DNA of 5,698 nt from Pseudomonadota bacterium (GTDB taxonomy: Bacteria; Pseudomonadota; Gammaproteobacteria; Acidithiobacillales; Acidithiobacillaceae). Below are positions 1 through 5,698 of this stretch, in pieces. The first letter of the stretch is position 1, and each line of letters starts with the position of its first letter. The notes under the pieces were generated by a model. That model worked only from the letters and a program-made list of their open reading frames with translations. It was not told the DNA's origin and ran no database searches. A program made the position numbers and the translations under genes. The stretch lies in contig JAKBXD010000129.1 in assembly GCA_021840785.1 (NCBI GenBank), forward strand, positions 1 to 5,698, in the 5' to 3' direction.

Positions 1-903
1 GCCACCATGCCCGTCCAGGACGGGGAAAGCGTGGTCCTGCGCCTGCTGGACCAGCAAACCGCATTACTGCATTTTAATGAGCTCGGGATGCCCCGCAACA
101 TTGAGATCAGCCTGCAAAACATCATGCACCGTCCGCACGGATTGTTTCTGGTAACCGGCCCTACCGGGTCAGGCAAATCGACGACGCTGTATGCGGCACT
201 GAATGAAATCAACACGATCGAACGCAAGATTTTCACCGTGGAAGACCCCGTGGAATACCGCCTCCAGGGCATCAGCCAGGTGCAGGTGCATCCTCGTATC
301 GGGCTCGACTTTGCGCGGGTGCTCCGCACCATCCTGCGCCAGGATCCGGATGTTATCATGGTGGGCGAGATTCGCGACCATGAAACGGCGGAAATCGCCG
401 CGCGCGCCGCTCTGACCGGTCACCTGGTGCTGGCCACGCTCCACACCAACGACGCGGTGGGCGCCTTTCCGCGATTGCAGGAACTCGAGGTGGAATCTTT
501 TCTGATCGGGTCGGCGGTGCTCGGGGTGATGGCGCAACGCCTGGTGCGTCGTATCTGCCCGTCCTGCAAGACCGAGGACAAGGAGGTCAGCCCCGCAGAA
601 CGCGCGGCTTTTGCCGACCGTCTCGGCGTGCCTCCCGACTTCGTCACCTTTTCCTGCGGGAAAGGTTGCAACACCTGCAATTTCACCGGGTATCGCGGTC
701 GGCAACCGGTTTTCGAACTGATCCGCATGGATCCATTACTCCGCGCGGCCATTCTCGGTAATAGCCGCGCAGCACTTCTTGAGGCCGCGAACCGGCAACA
801 ACAGTTCACTTTATTACGCGAAGAGGCCATGCGCCTGGTTTGGGAGGGCATTACCACCCTGGCAGAAATGGCGCGGGTGACCAGCGACGCGGCGGAGGAC
901 TGA
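1..903 (+). CDS. mshE: MshE-like pilus assembly ATPase (PilB/GspE family), C-terminal part, 5' truncated
   Basis: Cytoplasmic hexameric ATPase that powers pilus subunit insertion. The reading frame is open from base 1, so the true start is upstream of the window; the ATG at 7 is an internal Met in the conserved stretch TMPVQDGESVVLRLLD. Seen: Walker A GPTGSGKS (nt 157-180), Asp box FTVEDPVEY (about nt 232-258), Walker B region RQDPDVIMVGEIRD (about nt 337-378), His box TGHLVLATLHTNDA (about nt 415-456), and a zinc-type tetracysteine motif, CPSC then GCNTC followed by TGYRGR (nt 556-699), with one extra Cys just before the second pair. All catalytic motifs are intact. Family knowledge: full-length MshE has an N-terminal c-di-GMP-binding MshEN domain, which would be outside this window, so it cannot be confirmed. 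The TGA overlaps the next ATG (TGATG). MshE rather than PilB or GspE is inferred from the neighbouring MSHA-type genes. Confidence 0.93.
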   Translation, partial: ATMPVQDGESVVLRLLDQQTALLHFNELGMPRNIEISLQNIMHRPHGLFLVTGPTGSGKSTTLYAALNEINTIERKIFTVEDPVEYRLQGISQVQVHPRIGLDFARVLRTILRQDPDVIMVGEIRDHETAEIAARAALTGHLVLATLHTNDAVGAFPRLQELEVESFLIGSAVLGVMAQRLVRRICPSCKTEDKEVSPAERAAFADRLGVPPDFVTFSCGKGCNTCNFTGYRGRQPVFELIRMDPLLRAAILGNSRAALLEAANRQQQFTLLREEAMRLVWEGITTLAEMARVTSDAAED

Positions 904-2126
904 TGGCGCGTTTCCGCTATCGTGCCCGCGATGATCACGGACAGCTCCGCGAGGGCATCATGGATGCCGGAGAAGGTACGATGGTCGCGCAGGCCCTGCG
1001 CAATAACCAGCTTATCCCCGTCAGTGTGGAAGAGCTCCGCGAAGGCGTTCGTATCGAACAGTTGTGGACCCGGCTCAACCGACGCCCCATCAGTCGCGCC
1101 GATATCGTCCTCTTTACCCGCCAGCTTTATGCCCTGCTGCACGCCGGCATCCCGGTGCTCAACGCCATAGAAGGACTGATCAGCACTTATGGCCCGCAGA
1201 CCCGCATCGGCGAAATACTCATACAGGTGCAGCATACGCTAGGCGATGGTCAGCCGCTTTCCGTCGCACTGGCGGCTTACCCTAAAGTCTTTCAGCCTCT
1301 GTATCTCCGTCTGGTAGAAGTCGGTGAGACGACGGGCAATCTCGATACGGTGCTGCTGCAGTTGTCCGGCTATCTAGAACGCGAGGACATCACCCTCGCC
1401 CGCATTCGTCAGGCTTTTCGTTATCCGTTTTTTGTGGCCATCGCTTTGGCTGTCGCCATGGTTATTCTCAACATCATGGTCATCCCGGCCTTCGCCAAAC
1501 TCTTCGCCAGCGCCCATATCACCCTGCCTATTTTTACCCGTATGCTCATCGCCTTCAGCAATTTTACGGTGGCCTGGTGGTGGCTGATCCTCATTATCGC
1601 CTTTGCCGCCATTTACGGTTTTCGCCTCTTTCTTCGCCAACCGCACGGACGTTGGCTCTGGGACCGTTTCTTGTTGCGTACCCCTATTTTCGGCGCGCTG
1701 ATCCTGGAAGACGCCATGGCGCGCTTCGGCAGAACCTTACAATTGGTCGCCACCGCCGGTGTCCCTCTTCTCAAGGGTATGGAACTGGTCATTGGCGCGG
1801 TACACAATCGTTTCATAGAGGATCGCCTGGCTGCGCTCCCCAAGGCTCTTCTCCGCGGTGAAGGTCTGCACATGAGCGCCAGCACCACCGGACTCTTTCC
1901 GCCTTTGGTTCTGCAAATGCTGCGCGTCGGCGAGGAAACGGGCGCGCTGGATAGCATGATGGGCGAGGTGGCGGATTATTATGAGCGCGAGGTGGAAAAA
2001 AAGGTGGACAGCCTTGCCGCGCGCATCGAACCGATCATGGTGGTGATCATGGGTGGTCTGGTTTTCATCCTCGCTGCCGGCATCTACCTGCCCATGTGGG
2101 ATATGGTGAAGATGGTCAAACAATAG
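903..2126 (+). CDS. mshG: MshG, inner-membrane platform protein (PilC/GspF family)
   Basis: Polytopic inner-membrane protein that connects the assembly ATPase to pilin polymerisation. 407 aa, the usual length for the family. An N-terminal cytoplasmic segment (1-60) precedes two repeated T2SSF-type domains: the first around 65-190 with FTRQLYALLHAGIPVLNAI and the signature GETTGNLD (141-148), the second around 268-390 with FGRTLQLVATAGVPLLKGME and the matching GEETGALD (343-350). Membrane segments are visible at about 175-197 (FFVAIALAVAMVILNIMVIP), 224-243 (a WWW-led stretch) and 379-399 (VVIMGGLVFILAAGIYLPMW). The ATG at 903 is chosen because it overlaps the mshE stop (TGATG) and gives the family-typical beginning MARFRYRARD. 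A longer in-frame opening from TTG 840 would run well into mshE. Translational coupling to mshE is likely. No separate mshF gene follows. Confidence 0.95.
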   Translation: MARFRYRARDDHGQLREGIMDAGEGTMVAQALRNNQLIPVSVEELREGVRIEQLWTRLNRRPISRADIVLFTRQLYALLHAGIPVLNAIEGLISTYGPQTRIGEILIQVQHTLGDGQPLSVALAAYPKVFQPLYLRLVEVGETTGNLDTVLLQLSGYLEREDITLARIRQAFRYPFFVAIALAVAMVILNIMVIPAFAKLFASAHITLPIFTRMLIAFSNFTVAWWWLILIIAFAAIYGFRLFLRQPHGRWLWDRFLLRTPIFGALILEDAMARFGRTLQLVATAGVPLLKGMELVIGAVHNRFIEDRLAALPKALLRGEGLHMSASTTGLFPPLVLQMLRVGEETGALDSMMGEVADYYEREVEKKVDSLAARIEPIMVVIMGGLVFILAAGIYLPMWDMVKMVKQ

Positions 2127-2257: not shown

Positions 2258-2716
2258 ATGCAAAAGGATTCCAGTGAACAGGGTTTCACCCTGATCGAGC
2301 TTATCGTGGTTATTGTCATTCTCGGCATTCTCGCCGCTTTTGCCATTCCGCGTTTTGTAAATCTGCAGAACGACGCGCGGGCCAGCGTGTTGCAGGGCGT
2401 TTCCGGCTCCCTGTGGGCGGCCTCCGCTTTGGTCTATAGCAAGTCCCTCATCGTTGGCAGCACGGCATCAAGTAGCGGCAACGTCAACATCGGCCAGGGT
2501 GTGGTCATCGCCACCGCCTATGGCTACCCCACAGGTGCCAGCATCTCCACCATGCTCCAGAACACCACCAATTTTGGTGTGAGTGCCACCGGGACCACAG
2601 CGACGTTCTGGCCTACCTCGGCCGGCAACTCTGCTAACTGCAACGTGGTGTATACGGCGGCCACCAGTTCTATCGTTCCGCCCACCATCGTCACGACCTC
2701 CACCGACTGCTCCTGA
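2258..2716 (+). CDS. mshA: MshA-like major type IVa pilin (prepilin)
   Basis: Probable shaft subunit of the pilus. 152 aa. The start at ATG 2258 follows AGGAG and gives a short basic/polar leader, MQKDSSEQG, ending in Gly9. Prepilin peptidase would cut before Phe10, leaving a mature protein of 143 residues with Glu at +5 (FTLIE) and the hydrophobic helix IVVIVILGILAAFAIPRF. The part after the helix, with LQNDARASVLQGVSGSL followed by ALVYSKS, is characteristic of MshA rather than PilA. The C-terminal region has two Cys (128 and 151), consistent with the D-region disulfide of type IV pilins. Ser/Thr content is high. It is preceded by its own promoter-like gap and followed by a strong stem-loop, as expected for a highly expressed subunit. 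Identification as major pilin rests on sequence likeness and position; MshB is also a possible assignment. Confidence 0.88.
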   Translation: MQKDSSEQGFTLIELIVVIVILGILAAFAIPRFVNLQNDARASVLQGVSGSLWAASALVYSKSLIVGSTASSSGNVNIGQGVVIATAYGYPTGASISTMLQNTTNFGVSATGTTATFWPTSAGNSANCNVVYTAATSSIVPPTIVTTSTDCS

Positions 2717-2785: not shown

Positions 2786-3241
2786 ATGGACGGGCAAATG
2801 GCTGACCGCGGCTTTACTCTCGTTGAAGTCATTGCCGTCCTGATCATAGCCGGTATCCTGGCGGCGCTGATTTTGCCGCGCTTCATGGGGATAGGGGGCT
2901 ACAGCGCCAATGCCGCGCAGGGTGATGTGATTGCCGCGGCCCAATACGCCCGGCAATTGGCCTTGCTGGGCAACGGCGACATTATCCTGAGCGTTCAGGG
3001 GAGTAGTGTGACGGTGCAAAACGGCGCCGGGCAAAACCTGCCGGTCCCCGGTGGCAAGGGCTACCCCATCACCATCCCCGCCAGCGCCCAGGTCGGCGCC
3101 ACCTTCACCTTCACCAGCGCCACCGGCAGCGTGGCCAATGCCACTCAAACCAGCAGCATCGCCCTCGTCGACGGTGGCGGCGAAAGCCGCGCGGTGTGCA
3201 TCTCCCCCACTGGGTTGGCTTACGCCGGACCGTGCGCATGA
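2786..3241 (+). CDS. mshC: MshC-like minor pilin (prepilin)
   Basis: 151 aa prepilin, probably a low-abundance subunit incorporated at the pilus tip or base. The leader MDGQMADRG ends in Gly9; cleavage before Phe10 would give FTLVE with Glu at +5 and the helix VIAVLIIAGILAALILPRF. The following segment (AAQYARQLALL) resembles the helical part of MshC, and the protein ends with two Cys (138 and 150) in CISPTGLAYAGPCA, a likely disulfide loop. Start choice is uncertain: AAGGA (2780-2784) is only one base from ATG 2786 and 13 bases from the in-frame ATG 2798. Both starts keep a valid prepilin leader (nine or five residues). A strong stem-loop precedes the gene. The stop overlaps the next start (ATGA). 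The MshC name comes from order and general likeness; generic GspH/FimT-type minor pilin is the alternative. Confidence 0.8.
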   Translation: MDGQMADRGFTLVEVIAVLIIAGILAALILPRFMGIGGYSANAAQGDVIAAAQYARQLALLGNGDIILSVQGSSVTVQNGAGQNLPVPGGKGYPITIPASAQVGATFTFTSATGSVANATQTSSIALVDGGGESRAVCISPTGLAYAGPCA

Positions 3242-3666
3242 GTAGGGTGGCATTGAGGGGAAAGGAGCACGGTGTCACCCTCATCGAGCTGGTGATGGCC
3301 ATGATCTTGCTGGGTTTTCTGGCTGCACTCATCATCCCCGTGGTCTGGTACGGTCGCTTCGGTGCCAATCCGGTGCCGACGGCGCAGGCCACGGCTATTG
3401 CTCAAAGTACGTTGGAGCAAGGGATGGTAGCGAATTATAAAAGCCCTTTTGGCAATGGGTGTAAGGGAAAACCAAGCCCGACACCAGCAAATAGCTACGG
3501 CTTTAGCATCACCACAAATTGTACAAAAAATACAAAAAATAAATTGCAAGGGATCCCGAAAAAAGATGCCGAATATCTGACGGTGCAGGTCAGCGGCCCC
3601 AGCGGGGCGGATATCACCCTGGGGGCGTGGCGCACGAAATATTGCTTCGGCAGCAATTGCCCATGA
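3238..3666 (+). CDS. mshD: MshD-like minor pilin (prepilin)
   Basis: 142 aa. The ATG at 3238 overlaps the upstream stop (ATGA). This gives the leader MSRVALRGKEHG ending in Gly12, then Val13 as the mature +1 residue instead of the usual Phe, Glu at +5 (VTLIE), and the helix LVMAMILLGFLAALIIPVVW. The stretch NPVPTAQATAIAQSTLEQGM resembles the region after the helix in MshD proteins, where a conserved alpha-helical segment follows. Four Cys (75, 95, 136 and 141) could form two disulfides. Nucleotides 3421-3550 are poor in GC (52 of 130 by hand count) compared with about 60 percent just upstream, and include a 9-base tandem repeat encoding TKN-TKN. The stop overlaps the next start. The MshD assignment is moderate; minor pilin is firm. 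Confidence 0.78.
   Translation: MSRVALRGKEHGVTLIELVMAMILLGFLAALIIPVVWYGRFGANPVPTAQATAIAQSTLEQGMVANYKSPFGNGCKGKPSPTPANSYGFSITTNCTKNTKNKLQGIPKKDAEYLTVQVSGPSGADITLGAWRTKYCFGSNCP
3523..3540 (+). repeat. Perfect 9-base tandem duplication inside the mshD-like gene
   Basis: ACAAAAAAT occurs twice in direct succession and each copy carries a run of six A. It is in frame and encodes Thr-Lys-Asn twice. A gain or loss of a whole unit would keep the frame, whereas slippage in an A6 run would shift it and truncate the minor pilin. It sits in the most AT-rich part of the window. Confidence 0.85.
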
Positions 3667-4226
3667 TATTCCCGCAAATCCGCCTCAACGCCCAGAGCGG
3701 CCTCACTCTCATCGAGCTGATTGTGGCCATCGTCATCCTCGGCATCCTGTCCGTGGGAGCGACGGCGCTCATCGTGCGTTCGGTGCAAACCTATCAGACC
3801 AACCGCGCCGCTGGCGAGCTGGCCAGTCAGGGCGAGATGGCACTGACGGTCATGACGCGGGAACTGCATAATGCCCAGCCGGGGACGTTAACCATCTCTA
3901 ATGGCGGAGCAACCGTCTCTTTTAGACGCTGTACCGCGCCGCCCAGCGCCGCTGCTGCCAGCGTCTTTTCCGGCGGCTATGGCTATGGCTTTGCCTTTAG
4001 CAACGGGCAACTGACCCAGAGCACACCCAACTGGCCGTCGGCGCAGGTTCTCGCGGTCAATGCCAGTGGCGCTTTCAGCGCACTTCCCGTAGGATCGAGC
4101 GCGAGCACGGCCAGCGGCGTGTCGGTGACGCTGACCCTCAGCGACCCCGCAGCCGCTGTCCGCCTCAGTCTGAGCCGGGCCATCGCCGTCCTCAGTTCCG
4201 CCTATTCCGTGGTCAATAACCAATGA
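3663..4226 (+). CDS. mshO: MshO-like minor pilin (PilW/GspJ type)
   Basis: 187 aa. The ATG at 3663 overlaps the mshD-like stop (ATGA) and gives the leader MIFPQIRLNAQSG ending in Gly13, followed by Leu as mature +1, Glu at +5 (LTLIE) and the helix LIVAIVILGILSVGATALIV. An earlier in-frame start at 3627 would only lengthen the leader into mshD and is less likely. After the helix, the pattern with MALTVMTRELHNAQPGTL matches the conserved RELR-x-A segment of PilW/GspJ/MshO proteins. The C-terminal part is rich in Ser, Ala, Gly and Val, with a GGYGYGFAF segment. Only one Cys is present (90), unlike its neighbours. The protein looks shorter than typical MshO. It is the likely partner of the adjacent MshP-like subunit in a tip or initiation complex, by analogy with GspJ-GspK and PilW-PilX. 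Confidence 0.8.
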   Translation: MIFPQIRLNAQSGLTLIELIVAIVILGILSVGATALIVRSVQTYQTNRAAGELASQGEMALTVMTRELHNAQPGTLTISNGGATVSFRRCTAPPSAAAASVFSGGYGYGFAFSNGQLTQSTPNWPSAQVLAVNASGAFSALPVGSSASTASGVSVTLTLSDPAAAVRLSLSRAIAVLSSAYSVVNNQ

Positions 4227-4954
4227 CGGCCAAACGGGATAATCGCCCTGTCGCGCTATCTGCGGAAAAGGGCTCGGCCCTGGTGATGATGATATTCATC
4301 ATGGTGGTGCTCGCCCTGCTGCTGGCGGCCCTGGCCTATATCACCGCCCAGAGCAATCAGAACACGGCCTACCAGATCGCCTCCACCCGTGCCTACTGGG
4401 CGGCCCAGAGCGGGGCGGAGTGGGGGACATACCAGATCGCGCCCGCCACCGGCAGCGCCGCCAGCCAGTGTTTCAGCCCTACGGCACATCCGGGCATTGG
4501 CAGCATTCCTGGGTTGAAAGGCTGTACGGCAACGGTGGCTTGTTCACCTTCTCCTCCTACCACGGCCTCCACCACCTCCTACCAGATCACCAGTCAGGGA
4601 AGCTGCCCGGCGGGCAATCTTGGCGCTGGCCATTCACCGGTAGCTGCCATAAGGAGTGTCATCGTCGAAATTACAACACAAAGAAGTGGTTGTGCTGCCT
4701 GCGCGACGAGTTGCGTCAATAGCTATTGCGCCGGATTTTTGGGTAGCTGTGATAATAACGGATTAAGAAGCTGCGCAACAACTTGCTCCATAGCGCCAAA
4801 TCACGTAAGTCGCTGTATAAATAATTCATGTGTTCGCATTTTTGGGCTTCTATTCTGCGACACAAACAGCCTGACTACGTGCCTCGCGACGTCCTGCCCC
4901 GGCAGCGCGGCAGGGGGATCCGCCACCCTTAACTACTGGCTTGAAAACCCATGA
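4223..4954 (+). CDS. mshP: MshP-like pilin-like protein (PilX/GspK type) with a cysteine-rich C-terminal region
   Basis: 243 aa. The start overlaps the mshO stop (ATGA). A basic N-terminus leads to EKGSALVMMIFIMVVLALLL; cleavage after Gly17 is plausible, and the mature protein lacks Glu at +5, as is usual for GspK/PilX-type subunits. The motif TRAYWAAQSGAEWGTYQI (55-72) is the MshP/PilX signature. From here the protein is unusual: four scattered Cys (83, 101, 107, 128), then twelve Cys between 157 and 225 in a partly duplicated pattern containing CDNNGLRSCATTC and CDTNSLTTCLATSC. The last 18 residues (ending LNYWLENP) return to an ordinary composition. The protein is longer than MshP homologues as I know them. 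The even Cys number suggests disulfide bonding outside the cytoplasm; metal binding is an alternative. The function of this region is unknown. Confidence 0.82.
   Translation: MTAKRDNRPVALSAEKGSALVMMIFIMVVLALLLAALAYITAQSNQNTAYQIASTRAYWAAQSGAEWGTYQIAPATGSAASQCFSPTAHPGIGSIPGLKGCTATVACSPSPPTTASTTSYQITSQGSCPAGNLGAGHSPVAAIRSVIVEITTQRSGCAACATSCVNSYCAGFLGSCDNNGLRSCATTCSIAPNHVSRCINNSCVRIFGLLFCDTNSLTTCLATSCPGSAAGGSATLNYWLENP
4691..4897 (+). repeat. Imperfect protein-level duplication in the cysteine-rich region of the mshP-like gene
   Basis: Residues 157-225 hold Cys at 157, 160, 164, 169, 176, 184, 188, 198, 203, 212, 220 and 225. Two units align: C-x3-C-x4-C-x6-C-x7-C-x3-C (160-188) and C-x3-C-x9-C-x4-C-x8-C-x7-C-x4-C (184-225), sharing Cys184 and Cys188. 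Both contain C-D-x-N-x-L-x2-C followed by an A-T-S/T-C end. The second unit carries one extra Cys and longer spacing. The DNA copies have diverged, so the duplication is old or under diversifying change. G+C in 4681-4860 is 82 of 180 by hand count. Confidence 0.7.
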
Positions 4955-5016
4955 CCACCTGGCAATTCTTGCCGTTTTCGGCTAATACTCCCGCCATGGG
5001 TGTAGTAACATCATGA
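4951..5016 (+). CDS. 21-codon micro-ORF linking mshP and mshI
   Basis: An ATG at 4951 overlaps the mshP stop (ATGA), and its own TGA (5014-5016) overlaps the mshI start in the same way. The peptide begins MTTWQFLPFS, ends GVVTS, and matches no family I know. There is no strong ribosome binding site before mshI, so ribosomes could be handed from mshP through this frame to mshI by termination-reinitiation. Alternatively it is the remnant of a lost gene, mshQ being the usual occupant after mshP, or a chance reading frame in a 58-base gap. The overlap arrangement is directly seen; translation is not. Confidence 0.4.
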   Translation: MTTWQFLPFSANTPAMGVVTS

Positions 5017-5698
5017 AACTCTGGGATGCCGACCTGCGGGACATTGTGCGGCGCTGGCGGAAACGCCCTCCGGTGGTGCTGGAGTTGCGCCGGGACGGCT
5101 ATTGCCTCGTGCGAGTGCATCATGGCGAAGCTGAACTGATCCTGGCCCAGGACATCGACCCGTTATCGAGCCGCTACCGGGAACTGCTGCTGGAGTCCTT
5201 ACGCCACAGCGTACAGAGCCATGGGCTGGCTGGCAGTCTGGCGGCTACGTATTTGTTCCGGGAGGACTATAACTTGCAAGTCGTGGATGCGCCCAAGGTG
5301 CCCGCGGCGGAGATGCTCGCCGCCCTGCGCTGGCAGCTCGCGGATTTGCTGGATTTTCCGGTGCAGGAGGCGGTGCTGGACGCCATCCCCGTGCCGGACA
5401 CCGAAGGGCGCCAGATTTTCGCCGTTGCGGTGCGCGCGAGCGTGGTTCAGGAACGGATAGACCTGTTGCGCGGTGTTGGCCTGCAACCTTTTTATGTCGG
5501 CATCATCGACCTCGCCCTGCGCGATTTGTGCTGGCTCCTGCCCGAAGAGGCGGGCGGCGTCGGACTATTGCTGATGGAAACCCGCAGTTGTCATCTGACC
5601 CTGGTGCAGGGCGGCAGCTACCGGTTTGGCCGACCACTGCCGCTGGGCTTTGCGCATTTTCCCGGCGATGATGATCCGGCGGGTTTCCGCTCCGCCAG
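5013..5698 (+). CDS. mshI: MshI, PilM-like pilus assembly protein, N-terminal part (3' truncated)
   Basis: Runs open from ATG 5013 to the window end (228 complete codons), so the C-terminus is missing. It begins MKLWDADLRDIVRRWRK. Diagnostic of MshI are YNLQVVDAPKVPAAEMLAAL, then RWQLADLLDFPVQEAVLDAI, the VAVRASVVQERIDLLRGVGL segment, and IIDLALRDLCWLLPEE followed by the strand-like GGVGLLLMETRSCHLTLVQG. Family knowledge: MshI is an actin-fold PilM-like cytoplasmic component of the alignment subcomplex, working with MshJ/K/L and the inner-membrane machinery. The start overlaps the stop of the preceding micro-ORF (ATGA). In Vibrio mshI lies at the beginning of the locus, upstream of mshE; here it follows the minor pilins, which suggests that the I/J/K/L group lies downstream of this window. 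Confidence 0.88.
   Translation, partial: MKLWDADLRDIVRRWRKRPPVVLELRRDGYCLVRVHHGEAELILAQDIDPLSSRYRELLLESLRHSVQSHGLAGSLAATYLFREDYNLQVVDAPKVPAAEMLAALRWQLADLLDFPVQEAVLDAIPVPDTEGRQIFAVAVRASVVQERIDLLRGVGLQPFYVGIIDLALRDLCWLLPEEAGGVGLLLMETRSCHLTLVQGGSYRFGRPLPLGFAHFPGDDDPAGFRSA

Follow-up and report, generated by a model that had tools for sequence, protein, structure and literature searches.

Exchange of pilin alleles between strains is already known, and pilin diversity is best known in pathogens, in which it is usually ascribed to immunity. The subject of the present study is a cysteine-rich module in an mshP-like minor pilin gene of Acidithiobacillus, lying at positions 4691-4897 of a 5,698-nucleotide stretch of DNA (contig JAKBXD010000129.1 of assembly GCA_021840785.1; the whole stretch is termed the window). 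It is probably an allele of a cassette, exchangeable and cross-linked by disulfides, which homologous recombination reassorts between strains. The closest described systems are the minor pilins of the MshP/PilX type (MSHA and type IVa pili), the PilA pilins of Pseudomonas aeruginosa, the PilE/pilS system of Neisseria, and the PilV, PilW and PilY1 proteins of Acidithiobacillus thiooxidans.

The window protein is like MshP/PilX-type minor pilins in its N-terminal helix, the type of its gene cluster (judged by an MshL model, see below) and its gene place, but differs from its own most distant relatives (P0082-P0095), which end shortly past the last strand, without cassette and tail. Strains of P. 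aeruginosa likewise differ in pilin allele, and the allele decides which phages infect them, according to PMC11998500. Exchange of PilA between strains is also similar in setting different alleles on near-identical flanks, as was seen here in the comparison of the window with a conspecific locus, in the backbone tree and in column association. However, PilA is a major pilin, while the segment swapped here is a Cys-rich inner part of a minor pilin, with 0 to 12 cysteines (Cys). In the PilE/pilS antigenic variation of Neisseria (PMC4877100), recombination replaces a variable pilin segment adjoining a conserved N-terminus; unlike that system, no silent donors were found here in four genomes, and the variation lies between strains. 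The A. thiooxidans proteins come from the same genus, and Cys and mineral contact are discussed for them in PMC11016768 and PMC6322766, but MSHA and mshP are absent from the main texts of both. A literature search, which left most subscription journals outside its scope, found no paper on the swapping of disulfide-rich inner cassettes in MshP-type minor pilins where Cys numbers stay even across many classes.

The cysteine-rich module

The gene and the features within it are as follows.

4223..4954, + strand: mshP-like minor pilin gene bearing the cassette, 243 amino acids (open reading frame (ORF) list; weak PilX_N match at residues 16-65; relatives named MshP at source; between mshO-like and mshI-like genes)
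4463..4942, + strand: tract over which the window and the conspecific locus L001 diverge (mismatch list)
4532..4666, + strand: left flank, residues 104-148, across which residue-class association climbs from weak to near complete; putative zone of left recombination edges
4667..4927, + strand: putative exchangeable cassette, residues 149-235, class A, 12 Cys (strand motif before and tail motif after, from 79 sequences)
4691..4897, + strand: Cys-rich core, C157-C225 (Cys codon positions)
4712..4786, + strand: duplicated unit 1, C164-C188 (shuffle test)
4814..4897, + strand: duplicated unit 2, C198-C225 (shuffle test)
4928..4954, + strand: conserved tail LNYWLENP with the stop codon (4 of 17 genus genomes have the tail DNA pattern, each of them once)

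The encoded protein has 16 Cys, four at residues 83, 101, 107 and 128, and twelve at residues 157, 160, 164, 169, 176, 184, 188, 198, 203, 212, 220 and 225. Translation of the ORF thus bore out the initial annotation of the locus, which had reported twelve Cys in 69 residues (157-225); their codons run from 4691 to 4897. That annotation had also described a duplicated unit, and the duplication proved longer than first noted. The two copies of the shared motif, CDNNGLRSCATTC at residues 176-188 and CDTNSLTTCLATSC at residues 212-225, are the ends of a repeat of C164-C188 in C198-C225, which aligned with a score of 64, while 2000 shuffles with the Cys kept in place gave a mean of 25.0 (standard deviation 8.9) and none reached the observed score. 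The same test gave p values of 0 to 0.011 in six other class-A proteins. The ordinary tail described after the module is indeed conserved in relatives.

A search of family libraries, as the annotation had proposed, returned no Pfam or NCBIfam family above cut-off on the window cassette, and no convincing relative was found among solved structures. A structure model of the class-A protein (mean predicted local distance difference test score, pLDDT, 68.0; predicted template modelling score, pTM, 0.42) gave the cassette fair confidence, with block means of 78-87 for residues 161-220, and predicted short helices and a hairpin, placed after a pilin-like helix and strands.

Relatives and cassette classes

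A protein search recovered 71 relatives, and all those with an organism name belonged to Acidithiobacillus. A profile search extended the set to 95 sequences, the 24 additions being a distant cassette-bearing set, some truncated copies, and cassette-less MshP/PilX-like proteins. Together with the window and the translations of three further loci (L001, L014 and L015) this made 99 sequences, 79 of which had both flanking motifs; the 20 that were dropped were truncated copies (e.g. P0056 and P0057) and cassette-less relatives. Counted in the 79 are the three locus translations, at least one of which (L014) is a near-duplicate of the database protein P0003; all 79 have in common a tail motif of the form LxYWLE or MxYWLE.

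The backbone carries four Cys in 78 of the 79 and five in one, P0003, and the number of Cys in the cassette is even in every case (12 in 23 proteins, 10 in 21, 8 in 17, 6 in 13, and none in 5). Joining at 38% core identity at first lumped classes B, C and D with two outliers, and this group was then split by Cys number. The cassettes so sorted make up 13 labelled Cys-bearing classes, or 14 if P0071 and P0073 are separated, as they were in the analysis of Cys spacing, together with Cys-free short forms. If the classes were independent, the chance of an even number throughout would be about 6e-5, a rough figure given that class borders depend on the identity threshold and that shared ancestry is possible, because several classes start with CxxC and finish with CxxxC or CxxxxC. 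The even number in all 79 cassettes points to disulfides, so that the disulfide stabilisation proposed in the initial annotation is, on this pattern, very probable.

In class A, the 12 Cys are invariant across all 21 rows although the loops differ in length (the fourth gap spans 4 to 8 residues and the ninth 4 to 9), which excludes a chance reading frame. The initial annotation had asked whether close MshP homologues generally share the Cys pattern of the window as part of a known domain: the pattern was found in 21 of the 79 (window counted), the other 58 differ, and the module corresponds to no named domain. Class H has two members, one with 12 and one with 10 Cys (P0058 and P0061), and the Cys gaps of class D (2-4-16-4-3) are those of class C (2-4-6-5-5-4-3) minus the two middle Cys. 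Judged from these spacings, gain and loss of Cys pairs together with variation of the loops is the mark of an evolving disulfide scaffold, and is not how a fixed metal site would appear.

Probable exchange of cassettes between backbones

Both flanks of the cassette were available as DNA at four loci: the window, L001, L014 and L015. At a fifth (L016, contig C96 of genome G015) the contig stops within a class-C-like cassette, as though the assembly broke at the variable site. Compared with A. ferriphilus DSM 100412 (L001), the window has 5 mismatches in 903 positions of mshE, 5 in 1223 of mshG and 7 in 686 of mshI (0.4-1.0%), and this near-identity indicates that its source is A. ferriphilus or a species very close to it. 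The pilin genes in between are less alike, with 22 mismatches in 456, 17 in 425 and 27 in 560 positions for the three that precede mshP. The cassette of the window has 87 residues and 12 Cys; that of L001 has 16 residues and no Cys. A single fixed metal- or mineral-contacting role for the module, as first envisaged, is not supported, given a close relative of the same species that is Cys-free at this place, and other relatives with other Cys patterns.

A backbone tree was built from 58 of the 79 rows, selected by an N-terminal SALV motif and the tail YWLE[NST]P, using 118 columns and cutting before the class-linked part. At least 24 changes of cassette class are needed on this tree, where 7 would suffice if each of the 8 classes had arisen once. 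The 11-row group that contains the window (Shimodaira-Hasegawa-like approximate likelihood ratio test, SH-aLRT, 87) includes five classes: E (3), D (3), B (2), A (2) and C (1). P0026 and P0030 match exactly in their backbones but carry cassettes of classes E and D, and, conversely, P0008 and P0010 have one cassette core on different backbones. Going by source names, two classes occur in each of three species: A and B in A. sulfuriphilus (P0038, P0044), A and D in A. ferrooxidans (P0007, P0040), and B and E in A. ferriphilus (P0013, P0026).

The association of backbone columns with cassette class, calculated over 39 rows, had a mean z of 0.16 in residues 1-40, 0.98 in 41-80, 1.74 in 81-115, 6.18 in 116-130 and 9.39 in 131-148. 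Almost absent from residues 1-80, it is strong in 116-148, the pattern predicted for homologous recombination by way of conserved flanks, and the presence of conserved flanks on both sides together with a diffuse left edge fits homologous recombination rather than a site-specific enzyme.

The window and L014 both carry class-A cassettes, and the synonymous divergence (dS) between these was 0.21 (11 of 60 sites), below that found in five other regions of the pair: 0.33 in mshP residues 1-115, 0.28 in mshO, 0.40 in mshI, 0.46 in mshE and 0.66 in mshG. Nonsynonymous divergence (dN) was 0.18 in the cassette and 0.02-0.08 in those same five regions; among the other pilins it matched or exceeded the cassette value (0.19 in the mshA-like pilin, 0.30 in the pilin at 3238). 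The dN/dS ratio of the cassette, 0.86, was the highest of the pair, the others being 0.04-0.43. Low dS combined with high dN, though calculated over few sites, fits transfer between species together with weak constraint or diversifying selection. Third-position G+C of the cassettes was 0.48 (window), 0.52 (L014), 0.39 (L015) and 0.50 (L001), and that of the backbones 0.71-0.75.

Search for donors within the genome

The tail DNA pattern occurred in four of the 17 genus genomes, in a single copy in each. Protein queries of classes B, C and D found no second cassette place in these four, though together these searches would overlook donors that lack a tail, belong to other classes or lie in unsequenced regions. 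A PF00078 search, which matched 3 of 14 known genomes used as controls, found no reverse transcriptase near mshP in the four; one of them (G008) has a match (E 5.1e-39) on contig C273 (L017), with mshP on C284. The single tail, the lack of a second cassette place and the absence of a nearby reverse transcriptase together indicate that donors most likely reside in other cells.

Gene cluster and neighbouring pilins

The window begins in an mshE-like gene, of which it has the 3' part, and ends in an mshI-like gene, of which it has the start; between them lie an mshG-like gene and five pilin genes. The genes around the mshP-like one are as follows.

1..903, + strand: mshE-like ATPase, 3' part (ORF; the L015 homologue passes an MshE-related c-di-GMP domain model)
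903..2126, + strand: mshG-like gene of GspF/PilC type (ORF; the L015 homologue matches GspF/PilC models, under their cut-offs)
2258..2716, + strand: probable major pilin, mshA-like, allelic (N_methyl above cut-off; comparison with L001)
3663..4226, + strand: mshO-like pilin, upstream of the mshP-like gene (N_methyl above cut-off)
5013..5698, + strand: mshI-like gene, start (ORF; weak PilM match; close identity to L001)

The cluster is of the MSHA type because the L015 secretin passes the MshL model TIGR02519 (263.1 bits, cut-off 250.2; the window ends before the secretin gene) and the L015 ATPase passes NF053729, the MshE-related c-di-GMP domain (67.5 bits, cut-off 38). The gene at 4223..4954 occupies the mshP place in the MSHA gene order, and the name mshO for 3663..4226 is likewise given by position. 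PilX_N scored 17.6 bits on the window protein, under the Pfam cut-off of 25.5. In a Pfam scan of 36 relatives at E <= 1, in which the 35 besides the window were scored as family counts only, PilX_N matched 32 of the 36 (best 4.1e-5), and three relatives (P0028, P0057 and P0070) bear the source name MSHA biogenesis protein MshP. The assignment of the window protein to the MshP/PilX-like minor pilins is supported by its PilX-like N-terminus and the MSHA-type cluster. PF20419, presumably tied to the MshQ adhesin, matched 0 of the 17 genus genomes, and 14 control genomes were equally without a match.

Against L001, the mshA-like pilin gene is identical over 2258-2380 and then has 68 mismatches in 2381-2716, mostly before 2540; L001, L014 and L015 hold a similar allele, which the window does not have. 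The pilin at 3238-3666 contains a low-G+C stretch, with 49-58% identity to L014 and L015 in 3401-3600, and has four Cys at each of the four loci, in differing positions, a strong difference between species; the stretch 3401-3620 is possibly a second exchanged segment. In L014, a 513-residue ORF at 2880-4421 (- strand), transposase-like by eye, breaks the mshL secretin gene, so the pilus may not work in that strain. Thirteen of the 17 genus genomes (G001-G017) gave no match to the window mshP or its tail; either the system is patchy in the genus, or it is too diverged in those 13 for detection.

Discussion

At the sequence level, different cassettes occupy a fixed site with conserved edges on near-identical backbones, and in single copy in the genomes searched. 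This is the basis for regarding the module as probably one allele of a cassette exchanged between strains, and its difference between strains suggests a fast-diversifying recognition or phage-evasion surface. The cassette would sit between the last two conserved strands of an Acidithiobacillus MSHA-type minor pilin, one per genome at the mshP site, and unlike cassettes would replace one another between strains by homologous recombination, via conserved backbone (with left edges at about residues 100-130) on one side and the conserved tail and downstream sequence on the other. The Cys are very probably paired as disulfides, forming a small, acid-stable knob with loops that vary. By analogy with PilX-type minor pilins, the knob may be displayed at or near the pilus tip. 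Its diversity would be kept by selection for rare types, most probably escape from pilus-using phages and less probably recognition of partners or surfaces. Phage escape fits best because several exposed pilus subunits, the cassette and the mshA-like pilin among them, are diversified; in P. aeruginosa, pilin groups and loops decide the selection of RNA phages, according to PMC11998500.

Several observations count against exchange of this kind. Class labels cluster on the backbone tree (24 changes, compared with a mean of 33.6 for shuffled labels, and 0 of 200 shuffles as low), and exchange is therefore not free. Many relatives come from short metagenome contigs, among which single chimeric assemblies are possible, though the same pattern is present in L001, L014 and named genomes. 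The DNA comparison includes only four loci, the search for silent copies relied on draft assemblies for three of its four genomes (in the fourth, G004, the locus lies on a 2.92 Mb contig), and the structure model of class B was poor.

The strongest of the other explanations, a possibility worth holding although it appears unlikely, is a substrate-tuned adhesin, in which the class of cassette sets the affinity of the pilus for a surface (sulfur, pyrite or biofilm polymer) and strains swap cassettes by niche. PMC6322766 discusses a need for type IV pili in the mineral attachment of A. ferrooxidans, and PMC11016768 cites a proposed contact of minor-pilin Cys with pyrite in A. thiooxidans. The allelic state of the mshA-like pilin is not explained by a tip adhesin alone, however, and five of the 79 cassettes are Cys-free.

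Partner or kin recognition, with like cassettes promoting aggregation of like cells or telling neighbours apart, seems rather improbable. An allotype locus would be expected to look like this, with a large number of exchangeable classes at a single exposed site on a pilus subunit, and sequence-specific self-interaction of pili in Vibrio offers an analogy. Yet a kin marker should stay with its genome, and the cassette classes cross backbones and species; the literature search, within the same journal coverage, found no paper on pilin and kin recognition.

More doubtful still is a metal-binding or redox-active thiol module touching Fe or S. The hosts inhabit metal-rich acid and several classes begin with CxxC, but Cys spacing varies by class, Cys-free cassettes occur, and the constant parity is explained by disulfides and not required by metal ligation. 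Programmed variation inside one genome, through silent pilS-like donors, a retroelement or a shufflon, would produce several classes in one species, as observed, but is the least credible proposal given one tail per genome, no extra place for classes B, C and D in four genomes, a reverse transcriptase in only one of these and on another contig than mshP, and diffuse left edges.

Exchange between strains thus being preferred, a wider reading can be offered tentatively, with somewhat less confidence than the exchange itself: that a repertoire of disulfide-knot cassettes is shared across species at one site of a pilus protein, possibly at the tip, with Cys pairs gained and lost, loops varied, and recombination dealing the cassettes among strains, so that the site would serve as a locus for allotypes or receptor evasion, with toxin-like disulfide scaffolds as its framework. 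For practical purposes the cassette is a possible strain marker in bioleaching populations, and short-read assemblies may break there. The cassettes also provide a naturally occurring set of small, disulfide-rich folds which have to function in strong acid. With about 14 Cys-bearing classes at one minor-pilin site in a free-living acidophile, the driver of environmental pilus diversity, whether phage, partners or surfaces, becomes testable.
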